Shown here: piece after piece, positions 10,209 to 14,617 of the stretch
How positions within the stretch are numbered: the stretch's first letter is position 1
Layout: each line of letters starts with the position of its first letter
DNA from: a virus
IMG/VR virus record: IMGVR_UViG_3300024262_000235
Span: 1-24,150 of that record
Length of the DNA stretch: 24,150 nt
Reading direction: 5' to 3' (one strand)
Translations under genes and position numbers: made by a program
Notes under the pieces: model-generated
The model's database searches: none
Told to the model about the DNA's origin: nothing
Seen by the model: only the letters and a program-made list of their open reading frames with translations

Positions 10209-10550
10209 ATGTCTCATGGCGACTATAACTGCTGCGCGGTCTGCGACTCCAAGCTAGAGTACAGCGCCGGCACCGCCAACACCAAGGCTAGGATATGTGA
10301 TGCCTGCCTGGTTAGATTAAGGGATTGTGGCCTTAATATTCTAACCACCGGGGAGCTGATAGAGTGGTTGAAAACAACCGACAAACTGACGTTAAAGATA
10401 GCCCTTAAAAAGATAGGGTTCAGCTTCTGCTATTACGAGAACCTTGTGGACGATGCTTTATTAGAAAGGGGACTGGATGATATAGTGGCAGGCCGGCCCC
10501 AACAGCCTGCTCTTGAGGAGAAGGTGAAAAATGGAAATCCAAACGATTGA
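10209..10550 (+). CDS. Zinc-ribbon protein with helical tail
   Basis: ATG 10209 is preceded by GGAAGGAG; the more upstream ATG 10137 lacks such a site. The N-terminus 'NCCAVCDSKLEYSAG' and 'ARICDACLVRL' give two C-x2-C pairs about 20 residues apart, a treble-clef or zinc-ribbon arrangement. The remainder is helical ('LIEWLKTTDKLTLKIALKKIGF', 'DDALLERGLDDI'). It overlaps the methyltransferase start by 20 bases, so the two are coupled. Function unknown. Confidence 0.65.
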   Translation: MSHGDYNCCAVCDSKLEYSAGTANTKARICDACLVRLRDCGLNILTTGELIEWLKTTDKLTLKIALKKIGFSFCYYENLVDDALLERGLDDIVAGRPQQPALEEKVKNGNPND

Positions 10551-11661
10551 AATAACCAAGCTCCGCCCTCACCCTCAGAATCCCAGAACACACCCAGACT
10601 CAGCCATTGACAAATTAGTTAAAAGCCTTACTGAGTTCGGTTTTACCAATCCCATCTTAGTCTCAGCCGACAATTACGTTTTGGCTGGTCATGCCCGCCT
10701 CAAGGCCGCTCAGAAGGCAGGATTAAAGGAAGTACCTGTGATTCAGTTACCTTTGAAAGGAAGTAAAGCCCTGGCCTACATGATAGCCGACAACCGCCTA
10801 CAAGACGAGACCGACTGGGACTTTCCCCTGCTCAAAGACTTATTTGGAGTGCTGGATACTGGGGAGCTGGATTTAGAGACTACAGGCTTTGACCTGAGTG
10901 AGATAGAGGCACTACTCACTAACGTTTCCGATGGCTTGACTGATGATGATGAAGTCCCCGAACCAAAAGAATCTATCTGTAAGACTAGTGACCTGTGGAT
11001 ATTAGGCAATCATCGGCTCTTATGCGGAGATGCTACCAAGAAAGAGGATGTGGCAAAATTGATGGGTGATGAGAAGGCAGACATGGTATTTACAGACCCG
11101 CCGTATGGAGTGAAACGAGATAAAGGTTTTGAAGGTTTTGGAGGCTTTGGGAAACCAATAGCTAGGCGTAGATATGAGGAAGGTAATTGGGATAATGAGT
11201 CACCATCAAAAGAAACATTCAATTTAATTATTCAGTTAGCTCAAAACTTGCTTATATTCGGGGCTAATTTCTTTTCAGACCGATTACCATTAGGCAAGCA
11301 TTGGATAGTGTGGGATAAACTTACCACGATGCCAACTTTTGGTGATTGTGAGTTAATATGGACAAATAGTCAAAGACTATCGATTAAAAAGTATACTTTT
11401 GAATATAATGGTCTTATTGGCAAGGAAAAGGAACGCTTCCATCCTACACAAAAACCAATAGGACTTCTTGTTGCTATTTTGACTGATTACTCAAAATCTA
11501 ATTATAAAGTTCTTGACCTCTTCGGTGGTTCAGGCTCTACCCTAATAGCCTGTGAGAAGCTAAACCGAAAGTGCTACATGATGGAGATAGAACCTTATTA
11601 TTGTGATGTGATTATAGAGCGATGGCAGAACTTCACTGGGAATCGGGCTGTAAAATGCTAG
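10531..11661 (+). CDS. ParB-like domain fused to DNA (N4/N6) methyltransferase
   Basis: A 376-aa protein. Residues 1-95 are a ParB/Srx-like domain: 'KLRPHPQNPRTHPDSAI', 'GFTNPILVSADNYVLAGHARLKAA', 'MIADNRL'. After a linker, the amino-methyltransferase has motif IV 'TDPPYG' (D189-Y192) before the SAM motif 'DLFGGSGSTLIACE' (D329 onward), the order of beta-class enzymes, with 'FHPTQKPIGLL' just before. It transfers a methyl group from SAM to adenine or cytosine amino groups. No partner nuclease is present, so it is an orphan, perhaps protecting phage DNA. Bases about 11161-11520, encoding the region between the motifs, are hand-counted at about 35% GC against 45-52% in sampled flanking lines, suggesting an exchanged recognition domain. 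Confidence 0.9.
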   Translation: MEIQTIEITKLRPHPQNPRTHPDSAIDKLVKSLTEFGFTNPILVSADNYVLAGHARLKAAQKAGLKEVPVIQLPLKGSKALAYMIADNRLQDETDWDFPLLKDLFGVLDTGELDLETTGFDLSEIEALLTNVSDGLTDDDEVPEPKESICKTSDLWILGNHRLLCGDATKKEDVAKLMGDEKADMVFTDPPYGVKRDKGFEGFGGFGKPIARRRYEEGNWDNESPSKETFNLIIQLAQNLLIFGANFFSDRLPLGKHWIVWDKLTTMPTFGDCELIWTNSQRLSIKKYTFEYNGLIGKEKERFHPTQKPIGLLVAILTDYSKSNYKVLDLFGGSGSTLIACEKLNRKCYMMEIEPYYCDVIIERWQNFTGNRAVKC

Positions 11662-12024: not shown

Positions 12025-12444
12025 ATGGCTAACTTCAGTGCTAACCGCGGACACCGCAAAAGAATAGAGCTTGACTGGAAACAATTTGAGGGCTTCTGTA
12101 TGATTCAGTGTACCCTGACTGAGATAGCGGCCTTCTTTTGTTGCTCTGAGGATACTGTTGAGACACGAGTTAAAGAGCATTATGGAGTTTCATTTTCGGA
12201 GGTTTTCGCTAAAAAGAGAATAGGTGGGCTTGTATCACTTCGCCGCAATCTGTTCAAACTTTCCGAGAAGAACGCAGCCGTAGCCATATTTCTAGCAAAG
12301 AACTGGTTAGGGATGGCTGATAAGCAGGAATTTGAACATAGTGGTAATATCAAGAGAACAGTTGAAGACTATAGTACCGAGGAACTCATCGCTATTATGG
12401 AGCACGAGCGAAGCCGTCTTGCGGCGCACCCTGGCCAAAAATAG
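12025..12444 (+). CDS. terS: Terminase small subunit-like protein
   Basis: A 139-aa protein from ATG 12025 with GAAAGG eight bases upstream; a TTG at 12010 is a weaker start. It has the HTH pattern of small terminases: 'DWKQFEGFCMIQCTLTEIAAFFCCSEDTVETRVKEHYGVSF', 'KRIGGLVSLRRNLFKLSEKNAAVAIFLAKNWLGM' and 'KQEFEHSG'. Small terminases recognise the packaging site and hand DNA to the large subunit. The next gene encodes the large subunit and overlaps this one. The pac/cos site is not located. Confidence 0.8.
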   Translation: MANFSANRGHRKRIELDWKQFEGFCMIQCTLTEIAAFFCCSEDTVETRVKEHYGVSFSEVFAKKRIGGLVSLRRNLFKLSEKNAAVAIFLAKNWLGMADKQEFEHSGNIKRTVEDYSTEELIAIMEHERSRLAAHPGQK

Positions 12445-14617
12445 GCTACTTCCCTTCTGCCAGTACACGTTCCCCGGCTATCAGTCCGCACCGCACCTAA
12501 CAGCGCTATCAGATGCCTTAGAAGCTGTAGAGCGGGGTGAAATCAAAAGGCTTATGGTTCTTATGCCCCCGCGTCATGGGAAAAGTGAGTTAATATCCTT
12601 ACGTTTCCCGTGCTGGTATATGGCTAGGCACCCTGAAGACTATATCGTTCAAGCGGGTTATGCTGAGTCGATTGCCTTAACGCACTCACGCAAAGCCAGG
12701 GATATATTCTGTTCTGTCGAGATGATGCGGTTGTTTCCCTCTATCCACCACCGACCAGAAAGACCAGGGCAGGAGATAGTAATTCCAGAGAGACAGGCAG
12801 CCCATGAGTGGGGTACGAAACAAGGCGGCTCATACTACGCCGTGGGCATTGGCGGTGGCTTAACTGGCCGGGGATTTAATATCGGGATAATCGACGATCC
12901 TGTCAAAGATGCCGAGGAAGCCGCCAGTGAGACTATCAGAGAGAAAGTGTGGGATTGGTACAGAACAGTCTTTAGAACCCGGGCTCAACCCGATGCAGCC
13001 ATAATTGTTGTGATGTGCATGACAGGGGATACACCCGTGCTCATGGGTGATGGTACTGAGCGTTTGTTACGTGAAATTAAAGTAGGTGACCAGGTGGCAA
13101 CCTACGATAACGGCAAACTGGCAACTTCTATGGTACTAAATCACACCAGCAATGGTGCTGATTACATCTTGAAAATTAGGACGACTTGTGGTAGAATAGT
13201 TAAAGCGAACGAACGACATCCGTTTCTAGTTGAGGAGAATGGGCAACTCAAATGGATAAGACTGAAAAACTTGACTACACACCACAAAATCGTAACCGTA
13301 AGGGGCAGTGGGGCAAGTGGAAAGGCAAGATTTGTTCCGTCGAGGGTTGCGAAGAGCCTGTTAGATGTCGGGGATATTGCTCGTCACACTACGAAAAGAA
13401 GAAGTGGGCAGATAGGCATCGCTCTCCATCTTATAATGCAGAATCCCTTCGGGATAGACGCCTCAAGCATCGCTACGGAATCACCGCTGTGGAATATGAT
13501 GCGATGTACGAAGCACAGGGCGGCAAATGCGCTATTTGCAAACAACCCCCAGGAGATAATGTCCGAGCGCATTGGGGAGGAAAACTGTGTATTGACCATT
13601 GCCACGAAACTAATACAGTTAGAGGACTCCTGTGTAACGACTGCAATCTCGCCGCTGGATATGCTAAGACAGAAGCAACAGCACTCGCTATTGGCGAATA
13701 TCTCCGACTTCACAACAGAATCGATTGAAAGCATTGAACCTGCTGGTATCGAAGAAGTATTCGATATTCAAGTCGAGCGTACCGAGAACTTTATTGCCAA
13801 CGGTATGGTGAGCCACAATACTCGATGGCACCCCGACGACCTTGTTGGGAGATTATTGAACCAGGCTAAAGGCGACCCCGCCTCAGACCAATGGGAGGTT
13901 TTGCACTTCAAGGCCCTAACTGATGGGAAAGCATTATGGCCGGCTATGTATCCATTACCGACCTTAGAAGGTATTAAGGCCTCAATAGGCAGTCGTGCTT
14001 TTGCGGCACTTTACCAGGGCGAGCCGACTGTAGCTGAAGGCCAGATAATCAAAAGAGAATGGTGGCAGTATTTCAAAGAAGTACCCACGTTCCAACGGAC
14101 AATCCATAGCTGGGATACCGCCTTCAAAGACAAAACCCAAAACGACTATTCGGTGTGTACTGTATGGGGAGAAACATCAAACGGCTATTACTTGCTAGAT
14201 GTATGGCGAAGCAAAGTTGAATTCCCTGAGTTGAAACGTGTAGCTATTTCGTTGTATAATAGAGACAGACCAAATGTGGTTATAGTCGAGGACTTAGCGA
14301 GCGGACAGTCTTTGATTCAAGAGATACAGCGCAACACTGCTATACCGGTACTGCCGATAAAGGTGGACAGCAACAAAGTGGCTAGAGTGAACTCGGTTAC
14401 TCCACTAATAGAAGCGGGTAGAGTTTTTCTGCCTGAGAACGCTCCGTGGTTATACGACTACATCGAAGAGTTATCAGCCTTTCCAAATGCAGAACATGAC
14501 GACCAGGTTGACAGCACGACTCAGGCATTATCTTTTATGAGAGGGCTACCCGGCCCAGTAGAAAAAGTCGTCTACTATGACGCTATGAAGGAATTAGAGG
14601 AGGATATAGATTTTTAG
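12332..14617 (+). CDS. terL: Terminase large subunit interrupted by an intein
   Basis: A 761-aa precursor. The ATPase has Walker A 'PPRHGKSE' (residues 79-86) and Walker B 'IGIIDDP' (184-190). The coupling motif 'VVM/TRWHPDDL' is split by the intein (residues 229-496). The nuclease domain follows: 'SWDTAFKDKTQNDYSV', 'VIVEDLASGQSL', 'HDDQVDSTTQAL'. Excision would leave 493 aa, a normal size for this family. The protein powers DNA packaging and cuts the genome. The start is uncertain: TTG 12332 gives a 113-base overlap with terS, and TTG 12419 is a plausible shorter start just before 'LAKNRLLPFCQYTFPGYQ'. The portal gene follows after GGAGG. Confidence 0.93.
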   Translation: MNIVVISREQLKTIVPRNSSLLWSTSEAVLRRTLAKNRLLPFCQYTFPGYQSAPHLTALSDALEAVERGEIKRLMVLMPPRHGKSELISLRFPCWYMARHPEDYIVQAGYAESIALTHSRKARDIFCSVEMMRLFPSIHHRPERPGQEIVIPERQAAHEWGTKQGGSYYAVGIGGGLTGRGFNIGIIDDPVKDAEEAASETIREKVWDWYRTVFRTRAQPDAAIIVVMCMTGDTPVLMGDGTERLLREIKVGDQVATYDNGKLATSMVLNHTSNGADYILKIRTTCGRIVKANERHPFLVEENGQLKWIRLKNLTTHHKIVTVRGSGASGKARFVPSRVAKSLLDVGDIARHTTKRRSGQIGIALHLIMQNPFGIDASSIATESPLWNMMRCTKHRAANALFANNPQEIMSERIGEENCVLTIATKLIQLEDSCVTTAISPLDMLRQKQQHSLLANISDFTTESIESIEPAGIEEVFDIQVERTENFIANGMVSHNTRWHPDDLVGRLLNQAKGDPASDQWEVLHFKALTDGKALWPAMYPLPTLEGIKASIGSRAFAALYQGEPTVAEGQIIKREWWQYFKEVPTFQRTIHSWDTAFKDKTQNDYSVCTVWGETSNGYYLLDVWRSKVEFPELKRVAISLYNRDRPNVVIVEDLASGQSLIQEIQRNTAIPVLPIKVDSNKVARVNSVTPLIEAGRVFLPENAPWLYDYIEELSAFPNAEHDDQVDSTTQALSFMRGLPGPVEKVVYYDAMKELEEDIDF
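13016..13819 (+). mobile_element. Intein in terL (268 aa), all splicing residues present
   Basis: It starts with Cys229 (codon 13016-13018) in 'CMTGDTPVLMGDG', followed by 'LLREIKVGDQVATYD' (block A). Block B 'VKANERHPFLV' carries His296 (codon 13217-13219). The C-terminal blocks F/G read 'EEVFDIQVERTENFIANGMVSHN', ending His-Asn at 13814-13819. The next residue, Thr, is the +1 nucleophile and restores 'VVMTRWH'. The splicing domain is about 85 residues at the N side plus about 31 at the C side. The central 140 residues or so show no known endonuclease in this frame, because that DNA codes for an endonuclease in another frame. Splicing competence is inferred from conserved residues. Confidence 0.93.
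13252..13728 (+). CDS. Endonuclease VII/HNH nuclease nested out of frame in the intein
   Basis: A 158-aa protein in frame 1, while the intein and terL use frame 2. Residues 28-50 form a first Cys/His cluster ('ICSVEGCEEPVRCRGYCSSHY'). Residues 75-150 are a clear endonuclease VII domain: 'YGITAVEYDAMYEAQGGKCAIC', 'LCIDHCHETNTVRGLLCNDCN' with zinc Cys pairs CAIC/CNDC and the catalytic DHCH, then 'AIGEYL'. A TGA at 13231 in this frame precedes ATG 13252, so it is not a frameshift extension; the nearest Shine-Dalgarno-like sequence (GAGGAG, 13232-13237) is 14 bases away. It is likely the homing enzyme that spreads the intein. Its target would be the empty terL site. Confidence 0.9.
   Translation: MDKTEKLDYTPQNRNRKGQWGKWKGKICSVEGCEEPVRCRGYCSSHYEKKKWADRHRSPSYNAESLRDRRLKHRYGITAVEYDAMYEAQGGKCAICKQPPGDNVRAHWGGKLCIDHCHETNTVRGLLCNDCNLAAGYAKTEATALAIGEYLRLHNRID

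Follow-up and report, generated by a model that had tools for sequence, protein, structure and literature searches.

The gene for the large terminase subunit (terL) in the viral contig IMGVR_UViG_3300024262_000235 raises the question of where the homing nuclease of an intein can be encoded. Inteins are taught as one polypeptide combining splicing and homing. A sequence-only reading of positions 1 to 24,150 of this contig (24,150 nucleotides, the whole stretch analysed here and referred to as the window) had placed a complete endonuclease VII (EndoVII) gene out of frame inside a TerL intein, and this was borne out with exact coordinates by ORF and Pfam analysis. The terL ORF (12332-14617, frame 2) matches Terminase_6N, Intein_splicing and Terminase_6C along its length (Pfam) and is uninterrupted across the whole nested EndoVII ORF; the true start codon of TerL may lie downstream of TTG 12332. 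The features of the locus are collected in Table 1.

Table 1. Positions of the terL, intein and nested endonuclease features in the window.
Feature	Positions	Strand	Evidence
TerL N-extein, ATPase part	12332..13015	+	Terminase_6N, E 8.8e-9; phrog_4758
Intein, 268 aa, C1...HN, +1 Thr; site VVM/TRWH	13016..13819	+	Pfam Intein_splicing 1.4e-16; 144 distinct same-site homologues; empty sites
N-terminal splicing (Hint) domain	13016..13309	+	AlphaFold pLDDT ~90, residues 1-100; solved DnaB and other intein relatives
Shine-Dalgarno-like GAGGAG (13232-13237) and TGGG (13240-13243), upstream of the EndoVII start	13232..13243	+	Best anti-SD duplex -8.8 kcal/mol
EndoVII start ATG (13252-13254), sharing two bases with TGG (13253-13255), the conserved Trp codon of the intein	13252..13255	+	(A/G)TG in 116/116 scored relatives
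Nested EndoVII (His-Me finger/HNH) gene, 158 aa, frame 1	13252..13728	+	Endonuclease_7 1.7e-19; invariant residues in A3
Intein linker, predicted disordered, overlapped by the EndoVII frame	13310..13699	+	pLDDT < 50, residues 102-231; linker codon position 2 fastest
C-terminal splicing block, ESIEPAGIEEVFDIQVERTENFIANGMVSHN and a few preceding residues	13700..13819	+	pLDDT 81-96 over most, ~63 in the last block; invariant columns in A1
TerL C-extein, nuclease part	13820..14617	+	Terminase_6C, E 7.8e-24

The intein met the criteria for a class 1 Hint intein (C1, HN followed by Thr, an Intein_splicing match and confidently predicted Hint halves). The nested product scored above the gathering cut-off for Pfam Endonuclease_7 and also matched PHROG endonuclease VII families. 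Residues C93, C96, D115, H116, C128, C131 and N132 are invariant in A3 and H118 is nearly so; the criteria for PF02945 (two CxxC zinc pairs, a catalytic D-H-x-H and N) were met, and all 21 members match PF02945. Modelled alone, EndoVII reached a pLDDT of 75.5, only moderate confidence, and the top Foldseek matches of this model, to T4 EndoVII, were weak (E = 0.02). T4 endonuclease VII (gp49) is a sequence relative by profile search (5.3e-7 to 1e7d) and shares the CxxC, DHxH and CxxCN motifs. Unlike gp49, the nested EndoVII has one or more extra N-terminal cysteine-rich segments and lies inside an intein, and no resolvase role has been shown for it. Two forms were observed across the family, a short one of ~155 aa and a long one of ~190 aa (e.g. 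L078 and L116); the latter has an extra N-terminal cysteine-rich segment resembling a zinc finger, which is perhaps a DNA-specificity module.

Elsewhere in the window, a free-standing HNH_3 endonuclease gene (1515-2108) adjoins a Prophage_tail gene, and a protein with ParB_N and N6_N4 DNA methylase domains is encoded upstream of terL (10531-11661). An Rfam search of the window and of the related contig L011 found no RNA family.

Homologous TerL inteins, a search for which the sequence-only reading had proposed, were collected by protein and collection scans together with a DNA-pattern scan for the HN/TRW junction that is blind to the linker. This gave 144 distinct complete inteins that share the TerL insertion site. 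All have C1 and +1 Thr, both being part of the selection rule, and 143 have HN. EndoVII was present in 140, always in one register (shift 2 of the intein); within the subset of 44 inteins first found by the linker-blind scan, it was present in 40. Homologues with EndoVII in frame with the splicing domains would have refuted the nesting and none was found; the defining feature of canonical inteins with a homing endonuclease (HEN), a nuclease in frame, is thus absent from 140/140. As most queries were related to the window, these counts apply to its intein family and not to all TerL inteins. The family occurs in many phages and several bacterial phyla, in IMG/VR records, cultured Gordonia and Mycobacterium phages and bacterial genomes that include Anaerolineae, Bradyrhizobium, Nonomuraea and Mycolicibacterium. 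Neither this spread, which takes in cultured actinophages, nor the shared Trp/start codon and the conserved Shine-Dalgarno (SD) signal described below had been noted in the sequence-only reading.

The four exceptions among the 144 are L245 and three mini-inteins, two of which (L260 and L311) retain scraps of the gene, namely its start and its last residues plus stop. L245 (minus strand, reverse complement of 1786-2844) is a 353-aa intein at the same site with its extra sequence in frame; by eye, without a profile, this sequence is LAGLIDADG-like, and two nuclease types may be competing for one site. In L121 and L074/L075 the TerL ORFs are very long (1023-1140 aa), with an apparent second insert upstream besides the intein with nested EndoVII; that of L121 ends ..HN/SELASIRF near the P-loop. 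In L087 and L101 the intein frame is broken near the C-terminal block and EndoVII is intact, sequencing error not being excluded.

The probability that the intein frame would stay open across EndoVII by chance had been put at about 0.0005 on the assumption of equal codon use. With EndoVII codons drawn from the phage's own usage, 4.8 stops are expected in the intein frame across the gene and P(open) = 0.00225. Shuffling EndoVII's own synonymous codons gave P(open) = 0.525, which is uninformative as a test of chance because these codons already avoid stop-making choices. The decisive evidence comes from the whole family: over 116 dereplicated loci, no intein-frame stop was observed against ~367 expected from each phage's TerL codon usage, in agreement with the earlier proposal that selection holds the frame open. 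In each of the 19 EndoVII loci that lack the intein, the equivalent frame contains stops within the matched stretch. The register itself is permissive. When the intein frame is at +1 of EndoVII, it acquires a stop only where a codon of the form N-T-A or N-T-G is followed by particular bases, and the structure of the genetic code lets codon choice avoid most such combinations; in the other alternative register stops come from common codon pairs, with a mean of 13.2 per gene.

The substitution pattern identifies the selected protein. Codon position 3 of EndoVII was the most diverged in 69/69 close pairs (means for positions 1-3 of 0.136, 0.077 and 0.302). Read in the linker frame, the same divergence makes codon position 2 the fastest, the opposite of what a constrained protein would give. 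Fourfold-degenerate sites diverged by 0.30 in the overlap and by 0.37 in the splicing domain, which is single-coded; the extra constraint from the linker is therefore only modest. AlphaFold predicted the Hint halves with values of ~90 and linker residues 102-231 with a pLDDT near 30. The linker was rejected as a conserved protein: its rates by codon position and its predicted disorder allow at most weak constraint, as do the BLOSUM scores of changes that are synonymous in EndoVII (-1.34 observed, -1.52 expected). The selected protein is EndoVII; the linker evolves as its by-product and mainly needs to be free of stops. The criterion for an overlapping gene pair (both frames open beyond chance and at least one under purifying selection) was met. 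The suggestion that every base serves two proteins needs correcting for the linker; such coding is plausible only at the ends, in the EndoVII start region (a splicing-domain strand) and at the EndoVII C-terminus near the intein C-block.

Signals for initiation within the intein were observed throughout the family. The EndoVII start was ATG in 93 and GTG in 23 of the 116 scorable loci, (A/G)TG being formed by a purine before the TGG codon of the conserved intein Trp. Where the residue before Trp could be encoded with a final T or C (20 cases), a purine was found in 20/20 (P = 9e-7). This single shared start site suggests one origin, which is an inference. An upstream intein Gly codon is GGA or GGG in 100 of 112 loci (89%) compared with 35% in TerL of the same phages (binomial 2.5e-33, no phylogeny correction), a bias that points to a Shine-Dalgarno site and internal initiation. 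Predicted SD pairing was -6.4 kcal/mol versus -5.4 kcal/mol in codon-resampled controls that preserve the intein residues (Wilcoxon 2e-8). These P values are descriptive, because the sequences share ancestry and are not phylogenetically independent. The GAGGAG and TGGG motifs of the window lie 14 and 8 nt upstream of the EndoVII ATG, respectively; the SD is nearly absent in L067, L069, L179 and L121. That EndoVII is made by internal initiation is inferred from these sequence signals, translation not having been shown.

Sequence comparison shows that the intein and its EndoVII transfer horizontally between TerLs that are only ~31% identical. Between the window and L003, EndoVII is 84% and the TerL C-extein 31% identical, and in other pairs EndoVII reaches 99.5% versus 66% for the C-extein. 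Across close pairs fourfold-site divergence was 0.30 for EndoVII versus 0.65 for TerL. By Spearman correlation of the identities, the splicing domain could not be told apart from TerL (EndoVII-splicing domain 0.54, EndoVII-TerL 0.56), so the claim of transfer rests on the specific pairs and on the fourfold divergence. An empty site, VVMTRW, was found in close TerL relatives of the window (L006 and L008-L012). One of them, L011, with an empty intein site in its terL, has a different 186-aa HNH-like ORF (1797-2357) further downstream that breaks the TerL frame.

Decay of the two frames is asymmetric. EndoVII is truncated or broken in L118, L121, L210, L230, L260, L269, L311 and L334, and the intein frame is open in 8/8. 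L230 has a single premature EndoVII stop (..HYRR*MWADG..) in an intact intein frame, as for a nuclease early in decay. The asymmetry matches the homing cycle, in which the nuclease is dispensable and the intein frame is not. Support for EndoVII being a homing endonuclease is nevertheless indirect (horizontal transfer, empty sites and decay), and cleavage and homing are inferred.

On sequence evidence, and in the absence of expression, cleavage or homing data, we consider it highly probable that a mobile TerL intein here carries its homing nuclease as a separate gene overprinted on the linker, the intein being at +1 of the nuclease. Ribosomes translating terL would read through the intein, and the Hint domain would then splice itself out. 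Other ribosomes would initiate internally, at the (A/G)TG that overlaps the Trp codon, helped by the upstream SD, and would release free EndoVII. EndoVII would presumably cut intein-free terL at the TRW coupling motif, and repair of the cut gene would copy the intein together with the nuclease.

Four other explanations were weighed against this one. EndoVII could be reached from the intein frame by programmed ribosomal frameshifting, in which case it would exist only as part of a TerL-intein-EndoVII fusion. The EndoVII frame is indeed open for 12-42 codons upstream of its start in ~51 of 116 loci, but a stop lies within six codons in ~65, and the stop codon directly before the start, in the EndoVII frame, in eight loci argues against frameshifting, as do the conserved start codon and SD; we regard it as very unlikely. 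That the gene was merely inserted where the alternative frame was open by chance, EndoVII being untranslated or a relic, could draw on the permissive register and on the own-codon shuffles of the window, and is hardly credible given the absence of stops family-wide, the purifying selection on EndoVII and the synonymous choices that conserve the start and SD. Practically no weight is left for the view that indels or assembly errors have shifted what is really an in-frame HEN domain, even though textbook inteins hold their HEN in frame and L245 has a long nuclease-like sequence in frame at the same site. The window locus is identical in a second public contig (L002), the EndoVII-bearing inteins all share one register and the complete isolate genomes of Chandler, Phlyer, Vivi2 and Affeca carry the nested arrangement; an assembly or frameshift error at the window locus was ruled out by the homologues and isolates.

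The remaining possibility is that the nested EndoVII primarily serves the phage and not homing, for instance by resolving Holliday junctions before packaging. T4 EndoVII (gp49) is a packaging-linked resolvase, and the nested gene, lying within terL, would share its transcript. Set against this are the patchy presence of EndoVII, the empty sites in close relatives, the excess of horizontal transfer and the decayed copies in otherwise open terL genes; moreover, an annotated RuvC-like resolvase near terL in Phlyer and Vincenzo would make EndoVII redundant there. We consider a service role improbable and retain the overprinted homing nuclease as the preferred reading.

Canonical HEN-bearing inteins (LAGLIDADG or HNH in frame) likewise place the nuclease between the N and C blocks of a Hint domain; here it is read in a different frame and would form a polypeptide of its own, the linker being disordered filler. 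Fractured genes, in which split inteins have a free-standing endonuclease between the halves, were reportedly described by Dassa and coworkers in 2009; the nuclease is likewise decoupled from the intein, but gene and intein are split there, whereas the window intein is contiguous and its nuclease overprinted. The C block of the window intein (~40 residues) is close to the usual HEN position, ~35 residues from the intein C-end (PMC6801210).

The nearest published precedent is ShiLan (PMC11855218). Arsenault et al. (2025) described out-of-frame HNH genes in methylase insertions without splicing domains and with no detectable ribosome-binding site (RBS), and leaderless GTG initiation was proposed for ShiLan (PMC11855218). 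The likeness lies in a hidden out-of-frame HNH endonuclease, an insertion open in the host frame and a patchy, homing-like distribution. The ShiLan insertion has no splicing domain that could be found, no EndoVII-family nuclease and no detected RBS, whereas the window has a splicing intein as carrier and a conserved SD; the window does not fall under the ShiLan type, defined by an out-of-frame HNH whose insertion lacks a splicing domain.

A member of the family has already been handled experimentally. According to the main-text passages of Kelley et al. (2016; PMC5050341), TerL6-f inteins occupy the ATPase coupling motif of TerL6 in cluster B3/B4 mycobacteriophages, the Chandler TerL6-f intein (gp6) splices in the MIG reporter and endonuclease activity was assayed for TerL1-b and TerL1-c only. 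The Chandler intein is homologous to that of the window and has the same nested EndoVII (KP027207, 3757-4215; 152 aa, GTG start); its DNA differs by one base from that of Phlyer. Neither EndoVII nor an out-of-frame ORF in the Chandler intein is mentioned in those main-text passages, supplements aside. A preprint cited in PMC11855218 (bioRxiv 10.1101/2025.01.02.630785) concerns actinobacteriophage inteins with a 'non-canonical architecture'; it may already report the nested architecture in actinophages, so the novelty of the full statement is evenly balanced.

With that reservation, it is about as probable as not that the family represents a further, global and hitherto undescribed homing-intein architecture, in which a nuclease overprinted on the linker begins at the conserved Trp codon of the Hint domain and one stretch of DNA independently yields a protein for splicing and a protein for mobility. 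The same permissive register has been reported for the ShiLan insertions, and this hints at a general rule for nuclease genes that invade a coding sequence without breaking it. A nuclease may lie hidden in inteins thought to be nuclease-free, one of which has already been cloned in the laboratory, and surveys of mini-inteins and of homing activity therefore need to search all frames. The overlap also offers a clean natural system in which one frame is selected and the other is mainly stop-free, with a decay series for comparison. In this large and widespread family splicing and homing would be separated although the same DNA encodes both, and the codons bear traces of internal initiation.
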